Assembly: GCA_029981855.1 (NCBI GenBank)
Contig: JARRCS010000001.1
Location: 1-64,000 of the forward strand
Length of the DNA stretch: 64,000 bases
Source of the DNA: Halanaerobiales bacterium
GTDB lineage: Bacteria > Bacillota > Halanaerobiia > Halanaerobiales > DTU029
Reading direction: 5' to 3'
The position numbers and the translations under genes are program-made. The notes beneath the pieces are model-generated. The model ran no database searches, was not told the origin of the DNA, and saw nothing but the letters and a program-made list of their open reading frames with translations. Positions within the stretch are counted from its first letter, which is position 1; every line of letters begins with the position of its first letter. Below are positions 6,344 through 57,928 of this stretch, in pieces.

Positions 6344-7275
6344 GCGACGCTCTCTTTTGAGTCTACTAATTATAGTTATTGGTGTTACCGTGTTATTTCT
6401 GGTAAAGGGATATATTATCTCTACTTATGCTGGTTTAAAGATGATGTCTGTGGCTCAATATGGTAATCTTCAAATTGCTAAAGAGGGTTACTGGGATAAT
6501 CGGGATAATCAACGACACCTCTTGACAGAAAGTGAGATTGCTGAGATTAAGGGAATCCTGGCTGAAAATGAGGATATAATAGATTGATTATACTACCGAA
6601 CTCAGTATCTCCGGTATTCTGGGCACAGAGAAGGGGAGTACTATCGTTTCCGGGATTGGAGTGGAACCAGGCAGTAGTCAGAGACAGAATATTATAATCT
6701 AGAATGGCACAAACCTTTTTGCCGGGGATAAAAGCCGGATTCTTTTAGGTGAAGGGATTATGAAAAAGCTTAATTTAAAGGTGGATGAATGGGTCTCAAT
6801 TATGGCTACCACAATTGATGGTGCTTATAATGCCGGCAGTTTACAGGTGACCGGTTCATTTTCAATGGGTAATGCTGATGCTGATAATTTCTATATTATG
6901 TTACCCATCAGTTTTGCTCAGAACCTGTTAAACACTGATGGAGTAGATAAATTTATTGTTAATCTTAAAGATACTGAGATGACCACAGCAACAGTTAACT
7001 GGCTTAAAAACAGGTTCGATGAGATGGGGCTGAGAGTAGAAATTAAGAGCTGGTCAGACCTGGCGGCTTATTATCACCAGGTCAGGGGATTGTATGAGAT
7101 TATCTTTTTCTTTTTGTCAACTGTGATCTTTATCCTGGTTTTTTTAAGTATATTGGGGATTATGTCTATGACTTTTTTGAAAGAATGGAGGAGATCGGTA
7201 CTATCAGGGCCATAGGTACCAAACGACATCAGGTATTTTTGTTGTTAATTCAGGAAGGCCTGATTATGGAGAGAT
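6306..7275 (+). pseudogene. FtsX/MacB-type ABC permease, multiply broken
   Basis: The frame opens normally ([20 protein letters not shown], a first membrane helix and a MacB-like periplasmic start) but stops at 6585. Reading resumes in another frame as LPTELSISGILGTEKGS, meets a TAG near 6699, and then stays open from 6760 to 7215 (LGEGIMKKLNLKVDEW and the second membrane helix). It slips again at a run of six T near 7171-7176; adding one T restores ERMEEIGTIRAIGTKRHQ. After EGLIMER it stops at about 7275. The last two membrane helices, expected in a permease of about 400 residues, are absent. So there are at least two frameshifts, one nonsense codon and a 3' deletion. Sequencing error could explain a single slip but not all of these. 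Confidence 0.75.
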
Positions 7276-11156: not shown

Positions 11157-11245
11157 GAGATATTAATTTAATTTTTTTCTAAGAATAATCTTTAATATCT
11201 TCCCGTAAATATTATTGGAAGAGTATTAGAGAAAGGGGTATCTTG

Positions 11246-12292
11246 GTGAGTAAACTACGTGTAGGTCTTTTATTCGGTGGCCGTTCTGAGGAGCATGAGG
11301 TCTCCATCATGTCTGCCAGGTCGGTTTTTACCGCGGCAGATCCGGAAAAATATGAAATTATCCCGGTAGCCATCAGTAAAGAAGGATACTGGCTGGATTC
11401 CGGGCAATCCAGGGAGATCCTGCTGGATGAAACCGTGACCGCAGTTCAAAAAGGTAAAGAGGGTAGTATTCCAACCAGTGTCATCCCCTTCCTGAAGGAG
11501 AGGCTGGACCTCGTTTTTCCGGTTTTACACGGCCCCTACGGTGAAGACGGGAAGATTCAGGGATTATTTGAGATTCTGGATATCCCCTATGTCGGGGCAG
11601 GAGTAATGAGTTCTGCCATTGGTATGGATAAGGCAATCATGAAGGAACTCTTTTCATATTGGGGTCTTCCCCAGGCAAAATATAAGGTTTTTTATGCCTC
11701 TAAAATGACCGGTGATCTGACGGCCTTAAAGAGGGAGATTGAGAGTGGGATTGGCTGGCCCTGTTTTATAAAGCCCGCCAATCTGGGCTCGAGTATTGGC
11801 ATCAATAAGGTGCACTATCCGGGAGAACTTGAGCAGGCTATCAAAGAGGGATTTAAACACGACCGTAAAATAATTATTGAGGAGTTCATCAAGGGCCGGG
11901 AGATTGAGTGTTCGGTACTGGGAAATGAAAAGCCGGTTGTTTCCCTACCCGGTGAGATCAGGCCAAAACATGAATTTTATGATTATGAGGCTAAATATAT
12001 AGATGAGTCTACAGAATTAGTTATCCCGGCACCGCTGGATGATGAGCTGGTTGAAGAGGTCAAGGAACTGGCCGTTAGTGCCTTTCGGGCTATTGATGCT
12101 AGAGGTTTTGCCCGGGTTGATTTCTTCCTTAGGGATCTGGATAATAAACTGATACTAAACGAGATTAATACCATTCCCGGATTTACCCGTTACAGCATGT
12201 ATCCTAAATTATGGGAGGTTTCAGGAATAAGTTATCGCGAGCTAATAGACAGATTGATTGACCTGGCTCTGGAATGGCAATCAGAGCAATAG
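11246..12292 (+). CDS. ddl: D-alanine--D-alanine ligase
   Basis: 348 residues. An ATP-grasp enzyme that makes the D-Ala-D-Ala dipeptide used by MurF. Seen: the N-terminal LLFGGRSEEHEVSIMSA, VLHGPYGEDG (substrate-binding Ser/Glu region), KPANLGSSIGI (ATP-binding loop), RVDFFLRD and the C-terminal NEINTIPGFT with metal- and nucleotide-binding residues. A TTG-GTG pair opens the frame; GTG 11246 gives the better spacing from AAAGGGG. It lies just ahead of the mraZ cluster and feeds the same pathway but is separated by terminators, so it is its own unit. Confidence 0.95.
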   Translation: MSKLRVGLLFGGRSEEHEVSIMSARSVFTAADPEKYEIIPVAISKEGYWLDSGQSREILLDETVTAVQKGKEGSIPTSVIPFLKERLDLVFPVLHGPYGEDGKIQGLFEILDIPYVGAGVMSSAIGMDKAIMKELFSYWGLPQAKYKVFYASKMTGDLTALKREIESGIGWPCFIKPANLGSSIGINKVHYPGELEQAIKEGFKHDRKIIIEEFIKGREIECSVLGNEKPVVSLPGEIRPKHEFYDYEAKYIDESTELVIPAPLDDELVEEVKELAVSAFRAIDARGFARVDFFLRDLDNKLILNEINTIPGFTRYSMYPKLWEVSGISYRELIDRLIDLALEWQSEQ

Positions 12293-37680: not shown

Positions 37681-37769
37681 GAAGAATAAATTCACTGTAG
37701 TATTTTTGCACTTGAAAATTATTATAATTTGCTATGAAAATTGTATAAAATACCTTTTGCTAAAAACAA

Positions 37770-37990
37770 GGAATGAGAGAGTAGCATATAATTAAAACTA
37801 CAGCGAACTGGGTATGGTGAGAGCCAGGTATTTAATTATATGTGAAGATCACTCAGGAGTTGACAGGCCGAAAGAGAGTAAGTCTGTCCGCTTATCAGCG
37901 TTAATGATTTGAGATGATACTAAAAATAGTATCAATTAGGGTGGTACCGCGGTCCTTTTCGCCCCTTGGCGTTAAGGGCTTTTTCTTTTG
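37770..37990 (+). promoter_or_regulatory. T-box riboswitch, isoleucine (AUC specifier)
   Basis: The highly conserved T-box GGGTGGTACCGCGG is at 37939-37952. Upstream, stem I features include GCGAACTGGG near 37803 and GAGAGCCAGG; the specifier region GTGAAGATCACTC carries ATC at 37848-37850, matching Ile. A terminator (GCCCCTT..AAGGGC then TTTTTCTTTT) follows at 37961-37988. Uncharged tRNA-Ile binding would stabilise the antiterminator and let transcription proceed into ileS. From 37663 to 38223 there is no gene, only this leader and a small repeat. Confidence 0.93.
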
Positions 37991-45189: not shown

Positions 45190-45290
45190 GGGTTCTTTTA
45201 AATTAGTCCTGTGAGGCTAATAAGGAAGACGGAGTTTAATGTAAAATCCCTTTCTTGCCCGCAGGCGAGAAGGGGTTTTTTCTTCCAGAA
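45190..45290 (+). promoter_or_regulatory. PyrR attenuator 1 (before pyrR)
   Basis: The PyrR-binding loop AGTCCTGTGAGGCT is at 45205-45218, matching the known AGNCCNGNGAGGYU element. A terminator hairpin CCCTTTCTTGCC..GGCGAGAAGGGG with T-tract lies at 45248-45281. With UMP bound, PyrR holds the loop and the terminator forms; without it, an antiterminator forms. Confidence 0.93.
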
Positions 45291-48592: not shown

Positions 48593-50653
48593 ATGAGTGT
48601 TACTCAAACAAACAAAATTAGAAATTTATGCTTGATCTCCCATGGTGGGGCAGGAAAAACTACCCTCACAGAAATGACTTTAGCCAATGCTGGAGTAATT
48701 AAGAATGTTGGAACAGTTGAAAAAGGTAATACCCATTCGGATTTTATGCCCGAAGAGAAAGCCCGTCAATTTTCCATCAGTAACTCCTATTTCAATTTTC
48801 CCTGGGGGGGCCATACTATAAACTTAATCGATACCCCCGGTTATGCCGATTTCAGAGGTGAAGTTGCCAGTGCCTTGAGAATGGTTGAGGGTGCGGTGCT
48901 TCTCATTGATGGAACCGCCGGTATTGAGGTAAATACCGGTTATGTGTGGGAAATGGCTGAGGAGAATGAACTTCCCCGTTTCATTTTTATTAATAAAATG
49001 GATAAAGAAGGAGCCAATTTTACCAGGGTTTACGAGGAAATAAAGAATACCTTTGATGGCAGTTTTATGCCCTTAACTATACCTTATGGTGAGGGAGAAG
49101 GTTACAAAGGCTTTGTTGATCTGTTGACAGAAAAGTGTTATTTATCAGGAGACGGTGAAGAGGAAGTGGAGATTCCTCAAGATATCCAGGATACTGTTGA
49201 AGAGATGCGTACGGAACTTCTGGAATCTGTGGTCGAGCTCGATGAAGAACTTATGGAAAAATACTTTGCCGATGAAGAGATTACAGATCAGGAGTTAGTT
49301 AACGGTCTGATCGAGGGGGTAGCTGCCGGAGAGATAATCCCGGTTTTAGCCGGCTCGGCCATTAATAATTCTGGCCTGAAAACCCTTTTTGATTATCTGG
49401 TTAAATTAGTTCCCTCTCCTGAGGCCAAGGGTGTTATTAAAGGCACCTGGGAAGGAGAAGAGGTTGAGGTTGAGGTTTCGGTAGATGGACCCTTTGTCGG
49501 TTTGGTCGGAAAAACTATGGTCGACCCCTATATCGGAAAATTATCGATTTTTAAGGTTCTCACCGGTCGTCTGCCCAAGGATAGCGAGGTCTATATTCCC
49601 AGACTCGATACTACTATCAAGCTGAGTAAACTTTACAAGTTAAATGGTGCAGACCAGGATGCTGTTGAGGAATTAGTTGCCGGTGATATAGGTGCTGTAG
49701 CTAAATTAGATGAATTAGAGACATCAGATACAATTACTGAAGGGGTTAAAATTAAACTGAAACCTATTAACTTCCCGATACCAATGCTGACCCAGGCAGC
49801 TATGCCTGCCAGTGAGGGTGATGATGAGAAGATGTCGACTTCCTTAAGCCGGATCAGTCTGGAAGATCCGACCTTTAAGGTTGAATATAATAAGGAGACT
49901 AAGGAACTGCTAATAACCGGTATGGGAACGGTTCATCTTGATGTTATCAAGGATATCTGTAAACGCAAATTCGCTGTTGATTTTATTACCACTACTCCCA
50001 AGGTTGCCTATAAGGAAACGATCCAAACCAAGGTTGAGGTAGAAGAGAAATATAAAAAACAATCCGGTGGCCGGGGACAGTACGGTCATGTTTTCTTAAG
50101 GATTGAACCATTACCCCGGGGTAAGGGGTTTGAATTCGATGAAGAGATCTTCGGTGGGGCCATACCCAGCCAGTATATCCCTGCTGTAGAAAAGGGTATC
50201 ATAGATGCCAAAAAGGAGGGTGTATTAGCCGGTTATCCGGTTGTAGATTTCAAGGTTACCGTTTACGATGGTTCCTACCACCCTGTCGATTCATCGGAGA
50301 TGGCCTTTAAGATTGCCGCATCTAAAGGCTTTAAGAAGGGAATGGAACAGGCAAAACCTGTCCTCCTGGAACCGATTATGGATATTTCGGTTACTGTACC
50401 CGAGGAATATATGGGAGATATCATGGGGGACCTAAACTCCAGGAGAGGTAAGATACTCGGGATGGAATCTGATAATGGCAATCAGATTATTAAGGCTCAG
50501 GTTCCGCAGGCTGAGTTATTTACCTATGCTACCGATCTGAAATCGATTACCGGTGGCCATGGGAAGTTCACCATGGAACTGGCTTACTATGATAAAGTTC
50601 CGGCCAGGATTGAGGAAGAGATTATTAGCAATAGAAAGAGTGAGTCTGCATAA
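48593..50653 (+). CDS. elongation factor G-like GTPase (FusA2 type)
   Basis: 686 residues with the EF-G domain order. G1 is SHGGAGKTTL, G3 is LIDTPGYADF, and G4 is INKMD. G2 lies around residues 40-62 (VEKGNTHSDFMPEE). Domains II-V follow, with GRGQYGHVFL at the domain IV entry. The G1 loop HGGAGKTT, in place of the AHIDAGKTT of canonical EF-G, and the lack of linked rpsL/rpsG/tuf mark it as the EF-G paralogue seen in many Bacillota, not the main translocase. Its role is unsettled. It stands alone with its own terminator. Confidence 0.9.
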   Translation: MSVTQTNKIRNLCLISHGGAGKTTLTEMTLANAGVIKNVGTVEKGNTHSDFMPEEKARQFSISNSYFNFPWGGHTINLIDTPGYADFRGEVASALRMVEGAVLLIDGTAGIEVNTGYVWEMAEENELPRFIFINKMDKEGANFTRVYEEIKNTFDGSFMPLTIPYGEGEGYKGFVDLLTEKCYLSGDGEEEVEIPQDIQDTVEEMRTELLESVVELDEELMEKYFADEEITDQELVNGLIEGVAAGEIIPVLAGSAINNSGLKTLFDYLVKLVPSPEAKGVIKGTWEGEEVEVEVSVDGPFVGLVGKTMVDPYIGKLSIFKVLTGRLPKDSEVYIPRLDTTIKLSKLYKLNGADQDAVEELVAGDIGAVAKLDELETSDTITEGVKIKLKPINFPIPMLTQAAMPASEGDDEKMSTSLSRISLEDPTFKVEYNKETKELLITGMGTVHLDVIKDICKRKFAVDFITTTPKVAYKETIQTKVEVEEKYKKQSGGRGQYGHVFLRIEPLPRGKGFEFDEEIFGGAIPSQYIPAVEKGIIDAKKEGVLAGYPVVDFKVTVYDGSYHPVDSSEMAFKIAASKGFKKGMEQAKPVLLEPIMDISVTVPEEYMGDIMGDLNSRRGKILGMESDNGNQIIKAQVPQAELFTYATDLKSITGGHGKFTMELAYYDKVPARIEEEIISNRKSESA

Positions 50654-50681
50654 AAGATCATCAAGGGTTAATAAGGGAAAG

Positions 50682-50716
50682 AATACCCTCTTAGCCTCGC
50701 TAAGGGGGTATTTTCT
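50682..50716 (+). terminator. Rho-independent terminator after the EF-G-like gene
   Basis: AATACCCTCTTAGC (50682-50695) pairs with GCTAAGGGGGTATT (50699-50712), loop CTC, then TT. Confidence 0.85.
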
Positions 50717-50811
50717 GCCAATAAAGTTTTTGCAATTTAGGTAATAATGTGATATAATATTAATGACTTTCTCTAACATTTCTATCGGAGATTGTCCACA
50801 AAAATCTTGTG

Positions 50812-50905
50812 TATAATTCCACCATTAATGATTACATTAAGGGGCTAAGTGCCTCTCAAATTACTAGAAAATTATGGTAAAAATACATAATTATGGTTAA
50901 AAAAT
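50812..50905 (+). promoter_or_regulatory. upstream region of the opine dehydrogenase cassette: -10 element and twin AATTATGG boxes
   Basis: TGTGTATAAT (TATAAT at 50812-50817) is a good extended -10 with a poor -35. Downstream, AATTATGGTAAAAA (from 50870) and AATTATGGTTAAAAA (from 50889) are direct repeats 19 bases apart, about two helical turns. They are candidates for a regulator site. A long leader of about 130 bases precedes the gene. AGGAGGTG precedes the ATG. Confidence 0.4.
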
Positions 50906-50949
50906 AGGGGGGATTTTGCAAAGTAAAAATTTTACAGGAGGTGTTTTAA

Positions 50950-52125
50950 ATGATCAAATTTGCTGTTTTAGGAGCAGGCAACGGCGGACAGGCGATGGCT
51001 GCTTATCTGGCTTTAAAGGGTTATGAGGTAAACTTATATAATAAAAGTCAATCGCGGATTGAAGCCGTAAAAAAGGAGGGTGGTATCCATTTAAGTGGTG
51101 TTTTTGCAGGCTTTGGCAGAATGAATAAGGTAACTACGGATATTGAAGAAGCCATTGAGGATGTAGAGATAATAATGGTAGTAACCCCAGCGGTTGCCCA
51201 TAAATATCTGGCAAGAGAACTGAGCCCGTATTTACAGGACGGACAGATAATTATTTTAAATCCCGGTAGAACCGGTGGGGCTCTTGAATTCTACAATGTT
51301 TTACAGGCTAATCACTGTCGGGCTGATGTTATTATCTCCGAGACCCAGACCTTTATCTTTGCCAGCAGGGTAATCGGTGAGGCCCAGGCCAAAATCTTCG
51401 GGGCTAAGAAAAAGGTTGCCATTGCTGCCTTTCCCAGTAATAGAACCAGAGAGGTTGTTGATAGGCTTTTCCCGGCCTTTCCTCAGTTTACACCGGTTGA
51501 GAATGTTTTAAAGACCAGTCTTGATAATATCGGTGCTGTCTTTCATCCCGCTCCTACATTATTGAACATGGCCTGGATTGAATCAACCGGTGGAGATTTT
51601 ACCTATTATCAGCAGGGAATTAGCCCGGCTGTGGCCAGGGTTTTGGAGAAGATTGATCAAGAACGGATAGAGGTGGCCTCCAGACTGGGAGTTGAGCCGA
51701 CCAGTGCCTGTGACTGGTTGAGAATGTCCTATGGTGCCAGGGGAAAGAATCTTTACGAATTATTGCAGAATAATTATCAGTACCATGGTATAGGTGCACC
51801 GGATAAGGTTAACCACCGCTATATCTTTGAGGATGTGCCGATGAGCATGGTACCGATTGCTTCTCTGGGAAGGATGTTTGAGGTCAAGACTCCAACTATT
51901 GAGATGATAATCAATCTGGCCAATATAGTTTTTCAAACTGACTTCTGGCAGAGTGGCAGGACGGTGGAATCACTTGGTCTGGCCGGATTAAGCAGCAGAC
52001 AGATTATTAATCTGGTTAATAATGGTAGTATTGACGGGGCGGAGATTTTACCCCGCATCTATAGTAAATTTGATAATCTTATCTATGAAAAATTTATAGG
52101 AGGATATCAGAAAGAGGTTGAGTAA
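50950..52125 (+). CDS. NAD(P)-dependent opine dehydrogenase-like protein
   Basis: 391 residues. The N-terminal Rossmann domain has FAVLGAGNGGQAMAAYLA (G8-x-G10-x-x-G13) and a second block IIMVVTPAVAHKYLA. The C-terminal domain is octopine/nopaline dehydrogenase-like (PF02317), with N-x4-H-P in LDNIGAVFHPAPTLLN; the His is the likely catalytic base. Enzymes of this family reductively join an amino acid and a 2-oxo acid, or the reverse. Substrate not known here. It begins a tight three-gene cassette: the B12 gene starts two bases after the stop. Strong ribosome binding site ACAGGAGGTG. Confidence 0.82.
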   Translation: MIKFAVLGAGNGGQAMAAYLALKGYEVNLYNKSQSRIEAVKKEGGIHLSGVFAGFGRMNKVTTDIEEAIEDVEIIMVVTPAVAHKYLARELSPYLQDGQIIILNPGRTGGALEFYNVLQANHCRADVIISETQTFIFASRVIGEAQAKIFGAKKKVAIAAFPSNRTREVVDRLFPAFPQFTPVENVLKTSLDNIGAVFHPAPTLLNMAWIESTGGDFTYYQQGISPAVARVLEKIDQERIEVASRLGVEPTSACDWLRMSYGARGKNLYELLQNNYQYHGIGAPDKVNHRYIFEDVPMSMVPIASLGRMFEVKTPTIEMIINLANIVFQTDFWQSGRTVESLGLAGLSSRQIINLVNNGSIDGAEILPRIYSKFDNLIYEKFIGGYQKEVE

Positions 52126-52127
52126 GG

Positions 52128-53777
52128 ATGAGTAAACTAATTATCGGCGCTTCTATCGGTAATTGTGTCCATGTGGCAGGGGTTTTGAATTTTTTACGCC
52201 TGGCTGAGGAACACGGATATAAAACAAAATTTTTAGGCCCGGCAGTCTCGATTAATTATCTTCTTGATGCGGTTCAGGAAGCAAATCCGGAGATGGTGGC
52301 AGTAGGTTACCGCTTAACTCCGGAGACCGGGTATAATATTTTGAAACGCTTGCAAGAGGGTGTTGAAGAGAGGGGCTTAACTAATCATAAATATGTTTTT
52401 GGTGGCACCCTACCTGTAGCTAAAAAAGCTCAAAAGGTAGGGCTTTTTGATGCTGTTTTTAGCGGTGAAGAAGAAATAGAGGAGATTATTGCCTTTCTTG
52501 AAGGAAGGGAAAGTGAACGGGAGAGTATGAATTACGGGAATACCCTTCTAGAGAGACTTAAGTTAAAGAAACCCTTTCCTCTAATCAGGCATCATTTTGG
52601 TCTGCCTACTGTTGAAGATACCGTTCAAGGTATCAAGGAGATTGCCGAGAGCAGGGTGCTTGATATTATCTCTTTAGGACCCGACCAGAATGCTCAGGAG
52701 TCCTTCTTCAGGCCCGAAGAGATGGACGAGGACGAGAAGGGGGCAGGCGGGGTACCTATCCGGACTGAGGAGGATTTAAGGAGCCTTTACCGGGCAACCA
52801 GGAGGGGTAATTACCCGCTGATGAGGTCTTACAGCGGTACCAGGGATGTCTTTAAGATGGCGGAGCTGTTATTGAAAACCATCAATAATGCCTGGTCAGC
52901 AATTCCCCTGTCATGGTATAATAAACTTGATGGCAGGGGGCCGAGGGGATTACTGGAATCCATCAGAGAGAACCAACAGCTAATGAAATGGCATGGTGAG
53001 AGGGGTATTCCTGTTGAGGTTAATGAGTCCCATCACTGGAGTCTAAGGGATGCTCATGATACTATTGCGGTAGTTATGGCCTTTCTGGCTGCTTATAACG
53101 CGAAAAAGATGGGGGTTAAGACCTATATTGCCCAGTATATGTTCAATACCCCTAATGCTACCAGTGCTTCGATGGATTTAGCCAAGATGCTGGCTAAAAA
53201 AGAGCTTATCGATGGACTTCAGTCTGAGGACTTCCAGATATTAACTCAGGTCAGGGCAGGTTTGACCAGCTTCCCGCCTGATCTGGATAAGGCTAAAGGG
53301 CAGCTGGCCTATGCTACCTTTCTGGGTATGGCCTTAAAACCGGATATTGTGCATGTTGTGGGTTATTCGGAGGCCGACCATGCGGCCGAGAGCCCGGATG
53401 TTATCGAGAGCTGTAAGATTGCCCGCCAGGTAATCAATAATAGCCTTTACGGTTACCCTGATTTCGGTGCTGACGAAAATATCCGGCGGCGCAAAGAGGA
53501 GCTGCTGGTAGAGGCAGAGTTTCTGCTCGGGGCAATCAAACAGGTAGCCTCTCAGGGGGTAAAAGACCCCTGGAGTAATGCGGAAACTTTAGCCAGGGCA
53601 ATTAGGATTGGTTTGATCGATGCTCCGCACCTGAAGGGTAATCCTGTCGGTGCCGGCAGATTAACCACAAAGATTGTTAACGGTGCCTGTTATGCTTATG
53701 ATTACAGGAAGGATAAGATTCTCACTGAAAAGGAAAGACTTGCTCTCCTCAAGGAGGAGGTTGAATTTGGCAGATAA
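52128..53777 (+). CDS. cobalamin-binding, glutamate mutase-like protein
   Basis: 549 residues. Residues 1-125 look like a B12-binding Rossmann domain: SIGNCVHVAG places H15 where the cobalt-ligating His of DxHxxG lies, but Cys (C13) stands in place of Asp. The usual SxL is YRL (61-63), and FGG (91-93) fits the later GG. The rest (about 160-540) resembles the TIM-barrel subunit of glutamate mutase (WSAIPLSWYNKLDGRG; VNESHHWSLRDAHDT; GVKTYIAQYMFN). The order (B12 domain first, barrel second) and the loss of two canonical residues set it apart from known mutases. It may be an adenosylcobalamin carbon-skeleton mutase or an aminomutase, with an unknown substrate. It is coupled to the opine dehydrogenase-like gene and overlaps the regulator gene. 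Confidence 0.7.
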   Translation: MSKLIIGASIGNCVHVAGVLNFLRLAEEHGYKTKFLGPAVSINYLLDAVQEANPEMVAVGYRLTPETGYNILKRLQEGVEERGLTNHKYVFGGTLPVAKKAQKVGLFDAVFSGEEEIEEIIAFLEGRESERESMNYGNTLLERLKLKKPFPLIRHHFGLPTVEDTVQGIKEIAESRVLDIISLGPDQNAQESFFRPEEMDEDEKGAGGVPIRTEEDLRSLYRATRRGNYPLMRSYSGTRDVFKMAELLLKTINNAWSAIPLSWYNKLDGRGPRGLLESIRENQQLMKWHGERGIPVEVNESHHWSLRDAHDTIAVVMAFLAAYNAKKMGVKTYIAQYMFNTPNATSASMDLAKMLAKKELIDGLQSEDFQILTQVRAGLTSFPPDLDKAKGQLAYATFLGMALKPDIVHVVGYSEADHAAESPDVIESCKIARQVINNSLYGYPDFGADENIRRRKEELLVEAEFLLGAIKQVASQGVKDPWSNAETLARAIRIGLIDAPHLKGNPVGAGRLTTKIVNGACYAYDYRKDKILTEKERLALLKEEVEFGR

Positions 53778-54447
53778 AAAGAGAGTGGATTTTCTTAAAA
53801 ACTTTATCCTTTTCTCCGAGATGAGTGAGGAGGAACTGACTAAAATAGTTGAGTTACTAGAAAGTAAAACCTACCCCGATGGTGCAACCATCTTCTTTGA
53901 AGGAGATGAGGGGGACAGGGTCTACTTTGTTAAAGAGGGGAAGGTCAAGGCTTTTAAATGTACGCCTGAGGGTGATGAACAGATATTAGAGATTATCCAG
54001 CCTGGTGATGTTTTCGGGGAGGTCGTGCTTTTTGGCATAGACAGGTACCCTGCAACTACTATAGCCCTGGGAGAGGTTAAGGTCGATATCCTTTCCAGAG
54101 ATAGGTTCCGTAACTATTTTAACAGTAATCCTCAGATTGCCTGGGGGATGTTAAAGGTAATGGCCAGAAAGCTCTTCAGGTCCCAGCACAGGATAGGTAA
54201 TCTCGGACTCAGGGATACCAGGGGACGGGTTGCTACCCTGATAATAGACATGCTGCATGATTTCGGTGATTCTGAAAGTGAGTTTATCCTGGAATTTAAC
54301 CGCCAGGAGATGGCAAATTTTATCGGTACATCAAGGGAGACGGTCAGCCGAACCTTGAGCGAGTTCCGGAATGAAGGTTTAATTGAGATTGAAGGTAATA
54401 AGATTTTTATCAAGGATCTTAAGGGACTTAAGGAAGTTGGGGGTTAG
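53767..54447 (+). CDS. Crp/Fnr family transcription regulator
   Basis: 226 residues from TTG 53767 (AAGGAGGAGG upstream), overlapping the B12 gene end by 11 bases. The N-terminal cyclic-nucleotide-binding-type beta barrel (about 15-125, YPDGATIFFEGDEGDRVYFV) is followed by a Crp-type helix-turn-helix (about 165-215: NRQEMANFIGTSRETVSRTL). No Cys cluster for an Fnr iron-sulfur centre is visible. Its overlap makes it a likely controller of the two metabolic genes before it, which is an inference. lnt starts a few bases after it. Confidence 0.9.
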   Translation: MADKKRVDFLKNFILFSEMSEEELTKIVELLESKTYPDGATIFFEGDEGDRVYFVKEGKVKAFKCTPEGDEQILEIIQPGDVFGEVVLFGIDRYPATTIALGEVKVDILSRDRFRNYFNSNPQIAWGMLKVMARKLFRSQHRIGNLGLRDTRGRVATLIIDMLHDFGDSESEFILEFNRQEMANFIGTSRETVSRTLSEFRNEGLIEIEGNKIFIKDLKGLKEVGG

Positions 54448-56086: not shown

Positions 56087-57928
56087 ATGTGTGGGATTGC
56101 AGGCTGGGTAGACTGGGAGAAAAATTTAATCAATGAAAGAGATATTCTCGAAGAGATGAAAGAGAGTTTGAACCACCGGGGACCGGATGAAGGAGGGGAA
56201 TGGTATTCTAAAAAGGCCGGGCTTGTACACAGGCGGTTGATTGTCATCGACCCCGCAGGTGGAAAACAGCCCATGATCAGGGAATACGGGGAAAACAGAT
56301 ATGTAATGGTCTACAACGGAGAGCTGTATAATACCGGGGAACTGCGAAGGGAATTAGCCCTGAAGGGTTATACCTTCCGGGGGCATTCTGATACTGAGGT
56401 TTTACTTATCTCTTACATAGAGTGGGGTGAGGAGTGTGTAAACTATCTAAATGGTATCTTTGCTTTTGCCGTCTGGGATGAAAAGGGAGAGAAGCTATTT
56501 CTGACCAGAGACCGGATCGGGGTCAAGCCACTTTTTTATGCCCGGTCTACTTCAGGTCTAATCTTTGCCTCTGAATTAAAATCGCTTCTCCTGCACCCGG
56601 AAATAGAGGCCAGGATCGATACTGAAGGTCTGGCTGAATTACTGGTAATAGGGCCGGGCAGGACACCGGGTCACGGGATTTTTACCGGGGTGAAGGAGCT
56701 AAAGCCGGGTTATTGTTTAACTTACACTCAGGAAGGGCTGAAAGAAAAACAGTACTGGTGGCTGGTAAGCAAGCCCCATGAGGATAGTCTGGAAGAGACG
56801 GTTGAGAAACTGAGAGAACTATTTGTCGATACGGTCAAAAGGCAGCTGGTCTCAGACATGCCTATCTGTACACTTTTATCAGGTGGGCTGGACTCCAGTG
56901 CCATCAGTGCCGTTGCCAGTCAGGCTTTGCAGGAGGAGGGATACGGGAAACTTCATACCTATTCGGTTGATTATCAAGGAAATGATAAGTATTTTGAGGC
57001 CAACAGCTTTCAACCTGATGCTGACAGCAACTGGGTAGATTATGTATCCCGGCATATTGATTCTGAACACCATTATGTTATAATTGATAATCAGCAGCTA
57101 GTAGACGGGTTAAGGGAGGCTGTCTATGCCAGGGATCACCCGGGGATGGCAGATATTGATGTTTCCCTCTATCTCTTCTCCAGGGAGATTAAAAAGAATT
57201 TCGTCGTGGCTGTTTCGGGTGAGTGTGCCGACGAGATCTTTGGGGGTTATCCCTGGTATTACCAGGAAGATATCTCTGAAATCAATACCTTTCCCTGGTC
57301 AAGGAGGTTGGGGGAGAGGATAAAGCTGCTTTCACCTGAGCTGATTAAAAGGATTAAACCTGAAGAGTATATGGCAGAGAGATACCGGGAAGCACTGGAT
57401 GAGGTACCCTTATTACCGGGAGAGGGCCGGAAGGAAGCCAGGATTAGGGAGCTCTTCTATCTCAACCTAACCCGCTGGATGCCTACCCTTCTCGACCGTA
57501 AGGACAGAATGAGTATGTATACCGGTCTGGAGGTGAGGGTGCCCTTCTGCGATCACAGGCTGGTTGAGTATGTCTGGAATATTCCTTGGGAGATGAAGAA
57601 TTACGGCGGTAGAAGGAAGGGGATTCTCCGGAAGGCCCTAAAAGGAATTTTGCCCGATGATGTCAGAAACCGGCCGAAGAACCCCTATCCCAAAACCTTC
57701 AACCCGGCTTACTTTAAGGCTACCAGAGAGTGGTTACTGGATATCCTGAACAACCCTCGATCACCCTTACTTGAACTAATCAACCGGGATATTGTTCTCG
57801 CATTGACCGAATTGGAGGAGGACTTTGATCTCCCCTGGTTTGGCCAGTTAATGAGGCTTCCACAGCTCTTTGCCTATTTGATCCAGGTAAATGTCTGGTT
57901 AGATGATTATAGTGTCAAGATCTGCTAA
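56087..57928 (+). CDS. asnB: asparagine synthase (glutamine-hydrolysing)
   Basis: 613 residues. The class II glutaminase domain starts at Cys2 (MCGIAGWVDW), with NHRGPDEGG and YNGELYNTGELR. The synthetase domain has the PP-loop LLSGGLDSSAISAV (about 265-278) and SGECADEIFGGYPWY. It makes Asn from Asp, Gln and ATP. Full length; ATG behind AAGGAGGGGAG. The 3' end overlaps the convergent rqcH gene by 14 bases. Confidence 0.95.
   Translation: MCGIAGWVDWEKNLINERDILEEMKESLNHRGPDEGGEWYSKKAGLVHRRLIVIDPAGGKQPMIREYGENRYVMVYNGELYNTGELRRELALKGYTFRGHSDTEVLLISYIEWGEECVNYLNGIFAFAVWDEKGEKLFLTRDRIGVKPLFYARSTSGLIFASELKSLLLHPEIEARIDTEGLAELLVIGPGRTPGHGIFTGVKELKPGYCLTYTQEGLKEKQYWWLVSKPHEDSLEETVEKLRELFVDTVKRQLVSDMPICTLLSGGLDSSAISAVASQALQEEGYGKLHTYSVDYQGNDKYFEANSFQPDADSNWVDYVSRHIDSEHHYVIIDNQQLVDGLREAVYARDHPGMADIDVSLYLFSREIKKNFVVAVSGECADEIFGGYPWYYQEDISEINTFPWSRRLGERIKLLSPELIKRIKPEEYMAERYREALDEVPLLPGEGRKEARIRELFYLNLTRWMPTLLDRKDRMSMYTGLEVRVPFCDHRLVEYVWNIPWEMKNYGGRRKGILRKALKGILPDDVRNRPKNPYPKTFNPAYFKATREWLLDILNNPRSPLLELINRDIVLALTELEEDFDLPWFGQLMRLPQLFAYLIQVNVWLDDYSVKIC

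Follow-up and report, generated by a model that had tools for sequence, protein, structure and literature searches.

A conserved gene pair for an opine dehydrogenase-type protein and a B12 mutase-like protein, with a possible role in osmotically controlled solute synthesis

The DNA examined in this study (hereafter, the window) is a stretch of 64,000 nucleotides (nt) from contig JARRCS010000001.1 of a Halanaerobiales bacterium (assembly GCA_029981855.1). Two adjacent genes of the window are the subject of this work: ODH, which encodes an opine/octopine dehydrogenase-family enzyme, and MUT, which encodes a single-chain B12 mutase-like enzyme. The pair recurs in many bacterial phyla and in Asgard archaea, and we discuss below whether it may be the core of a route to a compatible solute. 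The features of the locus are as follows:

50730..50758, + strand: promoter-like site, TTGCAA-17-TATAAT with an extended -10, recognized by its match to the consensus
50759..50949, + strand: operon leader of ~190 nt, without an Rfam family; many Bacillota relatives carry a cyclic di-AMP (c-di-AMP) riboswitch here
50950..52125, + strand: ODH, 391 amino acids
52128..53777, + strand: MUT, 549 amino acids
52128..52508, + strand: B12-binding Rossmann domain of MUT (residues 1-127; codon of the cobalt-ligand His15 at 52170-52172; 4jgi, Z 17.0)
52530..53747, + strand: glutamate mutase E-type TIM barrel of MUT (residues 135-540; 1cb7_B, Z 32.0)
53767..54447, + strand: Crp/Fnr-type regulator gene with a TTG start and cNMP and HTH_Crp Pfam matches; a local addition of Halanaerobiales, outside the conserved core
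56087..57928, + strand: AsnB-type asparagine synthase, two genes downstream, starting MCGIAG

The layout described in an earlier, sequence-only reading of the locus was recovered in full: three open reading frames behind one leader, with 2 bases between ODH and MUT and an overlap of 11 bases between MUT and the Crp/Fnr gene, whose start is preceded by a Shine-Dalgarno-like AGGAGG. Upstream of ODH, an EF-G-like gene stops at 50653 and is followed by a terminator-like hairpin. Because of this hairpin and the promoter-like site, the pair probably has a transcript of its own.

Assignment of ODH to the opine dehydrogenases, already proposed from sequence, is borne out by a Pfam search, in which the protein matches PF02317 (169 bits) plus Rossmann NAD families. 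Furthermore, the structure of N-(1-D-carboxyethyl)-L-norvaline dehydrogenase (1bg6) aligns over its full length (290 bits). Residues H199, R290 and D295, invariant among 21 relatives, align with the His/Arg/Asp active site of 1bg6, so that ODH possesses the NAD domain, the Octopine_DH domain and the catalytic residues of the family. Full-length homology and the same invariant positions are thus shared with 1bg6 and with octopine dehydrogenase. Unlike the genes of these enzymes, the ODH gene is nearly always paired with a mutase gene.

In MUT, Pfam detects a B12-binding domain (PF02310, residues 5-118, 43 bits with a cut-off of 32). The MutE family PF06368 matches residues 237-501 with 25.1 bits, just below its cut-off of 26.6, and some relatives score slightly above it. 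The barrel was missed when PDB was searched with the single sequence and with a profile, each of which matched only the B12 domain, and its identity emerged only by structure comparison. An AlphaFold model was built from an alignment of 49 relatives, with a predicted local distance difference test score (pLDDT) of 92.8 and a predicted template modelling score (pTM) of 0.85. Foldseek ranked glutamate mutase E first, followed by ornithine and lysine aminomutases. In VIA-align comparisons, residues 135-540 gave a Z of 32.0 against GlmE (1cb7_B), with a root-mean-square deviation of 3.1 over 374 residues, and residues 1-127 gave a Z of 17 against B12-binding proteins (17.0 with 4jgi). The model therefore shows a B12 fold and a TIM barrel on the same chain, as the sequence-only reading had suggested. 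In two Halanaerobiales metagenome-assembled genomes (loci L013:811-3003 and L014), MUT carries two long low-complexity insertions rich in Gln, Glu and Asn, the first separating the B12 domain from the barrel and the second lying inside the barrel.

MutL accompanies glutamate mutase and other adenosylcobalamin (AdoCbl) mutases. Natural fusions of MUT to a MutL domain were found in one Chloroflexota and one Asgard-phylum genome (L238:4233-8024 and L239:1-3651; 270 and 292 bits, respectively). These fusions are the best sequence evidence for MUT as a putative radical AdoCbl enzyme. Genes for MutE, MutL and OraE are present in the window's own genome, and AdoCbl mutases are therefore in use there. 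The B12 Rossmann domain with its cobalt-ligand His and the mutase-type TIM barrel are the features expected of this class, and AdoCbl chemistry may be predicted for MUT.

One might propose instead that MUT acts as a corrinoid methyl carrier, or as a B12 sensor, and not as a radical mutase. Indeed, the best sequence-search scores of the N-terminal domain are against methyltransferase-type corrinoid proteins, and most family members have Cys where the DxHxxG motif has Asp. This idea is, however, hardly probable at all given the mutase-type barrel and the MutL fusions, and the Asp is present in a few aligned members (3/49) and in the long divergent proteins of loci L186 and L187.

Examination of the B12 domain confirmed the cobalt ligand, His15, which is invariant (49/49 relatives). 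Cys occupies position 13 in the window and in 46/49 relatives, a count biased toward Cys because the relatives were gathered partly with a pattern containing this residue; the His and Gly of DxHxxG are kept in all. Hence, the full signature is absent from the MUT of the window, and the substitution pointed out in the sequence-only reading is common but not universal. A second substitution claimed there, Tyr for the Ser of SxL, was a register slip. Alignment to other B12 proteins puts the Ser position at residue 60 (Gly in the window, Ser in 33/49 relatives), not at Tyr61, and the usual Leu is replaced by an invariant Arg62. Two Thermotogota loci (L186:5925-7826 and L187:3643-5541) encode a divergent MUT of 634 residues with an enlarged B12 domain in which DxHxxG is found; these genes still adjoin ODH and an ATP-grasp ligase gene.

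D-ornithine 4,5-aminomutase (OraE) and lysine 5,6-aminomutase have a barrel related to that of MUT (Z 27-30) and also a B12 domain, which is last in the chain in OraE and first in MUT. A pyridoxal phosphate (PLP)-dependent aminomutase of the OraE/KamE type is nonetheless unlikely because no Lys is found 11 residues past the cobalt His in any of the 49 relatives. In the window this position is Ala26, while the OraE of the same genome shows the PLP Lys.

Residues R66, R149 and E171 of glutamate mutase bind the glycyl half of the substrate, with R100 and Y177 binding the acrylate half (PMC9545868). A hidden Markov model (HMM) alignment that is uncertain, and weak in places (single-target E 7e-4), places R66 at an invariant His156, Y177 at an invariant Tyr264 and R149 in the region of the invariant Arg233 and Tyr235, while E171 falls in a gap. 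R100 corresponds to R195, a position where only 25/49 relatives have Arg. By this alignment, the arginine claw (R66, R100, R149) that distinguishes glutamate mutase proper is not found in MUT. From these positions, the pocket may have kept part of its amino-acid half and lost contact with the side-chain carboxylate. Because the Arg that reads this carboxylate is not conserved, glutamate is probably not the substrate. There are other differences: glutamate mutase (GlmE/MutE plus GlmS/MutS) is made of two chains, whereas MUT is a single chain with the B12 domain first and the barrel second, has Cys in place of the DxHxxG Asp and has ODH as a partner. In addition, the canonical MutE of the window's genome is encoded by a separate gene. 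The TIM-barrel family, the B12 domain with its cobalt-ligand His and the association with MutL are common to both.

Relatives of MUT were found in 246 candidate stretches of GTDB contigs, from Bacillota, Halanaerobiaeota, Aminicenantes, Armatimonadota, Gemmatimonadota, Chloroflexota, Thermotogota and Lokiarchaeota, among others. Carriers among sampled genomes amounted to 65/103 in Thermotogota, 75/195 in the Asgard phylum, 16/301 in Chloroflexota and 2/199 in the phylum of a Neomarinimicrobiota locus. When neighborhoods were scored, ODH adjoined MUT on the same strand in 114 of the 120 loci inspected; it lay within 4 kb in 4 loci, and the contig ended in 2. Such adjacency is far beyond chance and supports a conserved pairing. 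The order is mostly ODH-MUT, and MUT-ODH in some loci; the link has therefore been re-made. Divergence of the two proteins is also correlated (Mantel r 0.77, 0/2000 permutations), with no correction for species phylogeny, which would itself give some correlation. Genes found near the pair in a single clade (LGT, V-ATPase-like, HI0933-like, FolC and HGD-D) were judged incidental. In one Thermotogota genome (L182:1274-17600), a block made of AsnB, ODH and MUT genes is duplicated in tandem together with two adjoining genes of unassigned family.

Several partners recur. A gene for a Ddl-like ATP-grasp ligase lies within 2.5 kb of the pair in 26/120 loci, and the Thermotogota gene usually shares a few bases with the pair (translational overlap). 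The ligase scores up to 200 bits against Ddl models, under their cut-offs; identity with PylC is unsupported, as the protein belongs to the Ddl family and no PylC model was among the matches. AsnB-type amidotransferases adjoin the pair or lie within 2.5 kb in 12/120 loci (Thermoanaerobacter, Chloroflexota and a few others). Their glutaminase Cys is kept in most cases and lost in L039 and L182/L183. Because AsnB adjoins the pair in Thermoanaerobacter and Chloroflexota, the AsnB of the window (56087..57928) is a possible partner of ODH and MUT. The canonical Ddl of the window is encoded by a separate gene (11243-12292), distinct from the pair-linked ligase. Two extra Ddl-like ATP-grasp genes, unlinked to the pair, are found in the window's genome (G000:C36:19139-20002 and G000:C17:97462-98295), and one of them could be the missing ligase. 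Finally, an ornithine-racemase-like gene joins the operon in L096 and L110 (422 bits with a cut-off of 480), and TldD/TldE peptidase-like genes come after the pair in Aminicenantes.

A mutase, an ATP-grasp ligase and a dehydrogenase are the reaction types of PylB, PylC and PylD, and the operon might be envisaged as a B12 analogue of the pyrrolysine toolkit that turns lysine or D-ornithine into a pyrroline- or proline-like solute. Glycyl migration by glutamate mutase resembles PylB chemistry; the ornithine-racemase-like gene and the variable residue at the side-chain carboxylate site would fit as well. We consider this scheme very unlikely, however, as the ligase resembles Ddl and not PylC, ODH is an opine dehydrogenase and most loci have no linked ligase.

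The sequence-only reading had also treated the three genes as a cassette under its own regulator, a view that was not supported. The Crp gene adjoins the pair only in Halanaerobiales and in one class-level relative (G039), and was rejected as a core member; elsewhere, the recurring element is a riboswitch for c-di-AMP, an osmotic signal. Matches to Rfam family RF00379 directly precede the operon in Thermoanaerobacter, Caldanaerobacter, Tepidanaerobacter, Thermosediminibacter, Tissierella and others. A covariance model made from 14 of these sites and scanned over 1.27 Mb of loci gave 32 strong matches (32/80 loci), all upstream of the first operon gene, and no other match above 20 bits. The first gene is either ODH or the ligase gene where the latter leads, at a distance of 13-367 nt (start codons being longest-frame calls). 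Many of these loci show a terminator-like hairpin before the first start codon, which is clear in L039.

In the scanned loci, no B12, lysine or T-box riboswitch immediately preceded the pair. In L063, a fluoride riboswitch (RF01734, 50 bits; 6688-6749) lies ~140 nt upstream of ODH-MUT in place of the c-di-AMP riboswitch. Elsewhere in the window, a T-box leader (37760-37969) and a PyrR binding site (45191-45283) were detected.

We favor, with modest confidence, the view that ODH and MUT form the core of an osmotically controlled route to an amino acid-derived compatible solute, because an AdoCbl mutase, an opine-type reductase and an amide ligase come together under c-di-AMP control. MUT would bind AdoCbl in the base-off/His-on state through His15, and a 5'-deoxyadenosyl radical formed in the barrel would promote migration of the glycyl half of a 2-amino acid, that is, a carbon-skeleton rearrangement. 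ODH would reduce an imine with NAD(P)H, either closing a ring or joining an amino acid to a 2-oxo acid. The product, which would probably protect against salt or heat, might then be neutralized or extended in many lineages by an amide ligase of the Ddl-like ATP-grasp or AsnB type. In Bacillota, the riboswitch is expected to switch the operon off at high c-di-AMP, the state of osmotic balance; in Halanaerobiales, the order to which the window belongs, a Crp/Fnr gene has joined the operon. Both the osmolyte role and the directions of these reactions are to be read as proposals.

There is a precedent for part of this scheme in the N-epsilon-acetyl-beta-lysine route, whose enzyme is a radical-SAM/PLP aminomutase and not an AdoCbl enzyme. 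In Dehalobacter, a c-di-AMP (plus Na+) riboswitch controls the enzyme for the N-acetyl-beta-lysine precursor (PMC9337991), a case of an amino-acid osmolyte precursor made under c-di-AMP control, as we propose for ODH-MUT. Unlike ODH-MUT, that route has no opine dehydrogenase. Also in favor of an osmotic link, c-di-AMP riboswitches in Halanaerobiales, present in 8/13 genomes though not found near the pair, lie upstream of genes that, at three sites annotated by eye, resemble K+ (Trk-type) or amino-acid transporters/permeases. Diadenylate cyclase is encoded in all 21 genomes sampled among the relatives, including that of the window.

Several observations weigh against the solute-synthesis proposal. 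RF00379 is absent upstream of the pair in the window (50600-51000 scanned), was not found in the window's genome (R1 scan) and is absent near the pair in the scanned Halanaerobiales and Thermotogota loci. Since the window has no riboswitch, the osmotic role suggested for its genes rests on homology, and the osmotic link in Halanaerobiales and Thermotogota would be an extrapolation. Further points against are that pairing with a ligase is not universal, most loci lacking a linked one, that the active-site alignment is of the uncertain kind mentioned above, and that we know of no such solute from these organisms.

A last difficulty is that c-di-AMP riboswitches control both osmotic and cell-wall genes (PMC9337991) and that the ATP-grasp partner is Ddl-like. 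The pair could thus supply a precursor for cell-wall or D-amino-acid metabolism, which the ligase would incorporate into a free D-dipeptide or into the stem peptide of peptidoglycan; the ornithine-racemase-like partner would agree with such a function. We find it distinctly unlikely, as the window's genome has its own canonical Ddl and the ligase of Chloroflexota is AsnB. Moreover, archaea of the Asgard group lack murein, and their possession of MUT weakens the cell-wall explanation.

Catabolism deserves consideration too. MUT might rearrange an amino acid for breakdown and ODH oxidize the product, as in methylaspartate or ornithine fermentation. The nearest structural relatives of MUT are fermentation enzymes, the family occurs in anaerobes that include amino-acid users, and both the TldD/TldE-like genes of Aminicenantes and the ornithine-racemase-like gene of L096/L110 would suit such a pathway. 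Control by c-di-AMP and ATP-consuming ligase partners are, however, better suited to biosynthesis, and the family is common in Thermotogota; fermentation is therefore an unlikely function, if one worth bearing in mind. The amino-acid rearrangement/redox route proposed from sequence stays plausible, and the evidence favors osmotically controlled biosynthesis over general amino-acid metabolism.

That route had also been called undescribed, which is correct in part. In Halothermothrix orenii the same pair, Hore_09740-Hore_09750, was recorded in 2009 as a putative operon without assigned function, and noted also in Thermoanaerobacter, Petrotoga, Roseiflexus, Symbiobacterium and Thermosipho as an operon of thermophilic anaerobes (PMC2626281). 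The passage of that account concerned with the pair does not link it with glutamate mutase, c-di-AMP, ligases, a MutL fusion or an osmotic function, and the distribution found here is much wider than the one stated in it. No characterized orthologous pair was found. The literature searched contained no paper joining the pair with the mutase assignment, the riboswitch, the ligases and the MutL fusion. We regard MUT as an unassigned AdoCbl mutase subfamily set in a new pathway context.

A gene pair without assigned function since 2009 thus gains a testable role. An attractive but tentative extension, toward which we lean slightly less than not, is that AdoCbl mutase, opine-type dehydrogenase and amide ligase make a new class of compatible solute, under c-di-AMP control and common to Asgard archaea and to anaerobic thermophiles and halophiles. 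If the proposal is true, MUT would define a new subfamily of AdoCbl mutases that catalyzes a new reaction, and the c-di-AMP regulon would be extended. B12 radical chemistry would also enter osmoadaptation, MUT being, to our knowledge, the first B12 radical mutase with such a role. An undiscovered solute would then be predicted in Thermoanaerobacter, Thermotogota, Halanaerobiales and Asgard archaea.

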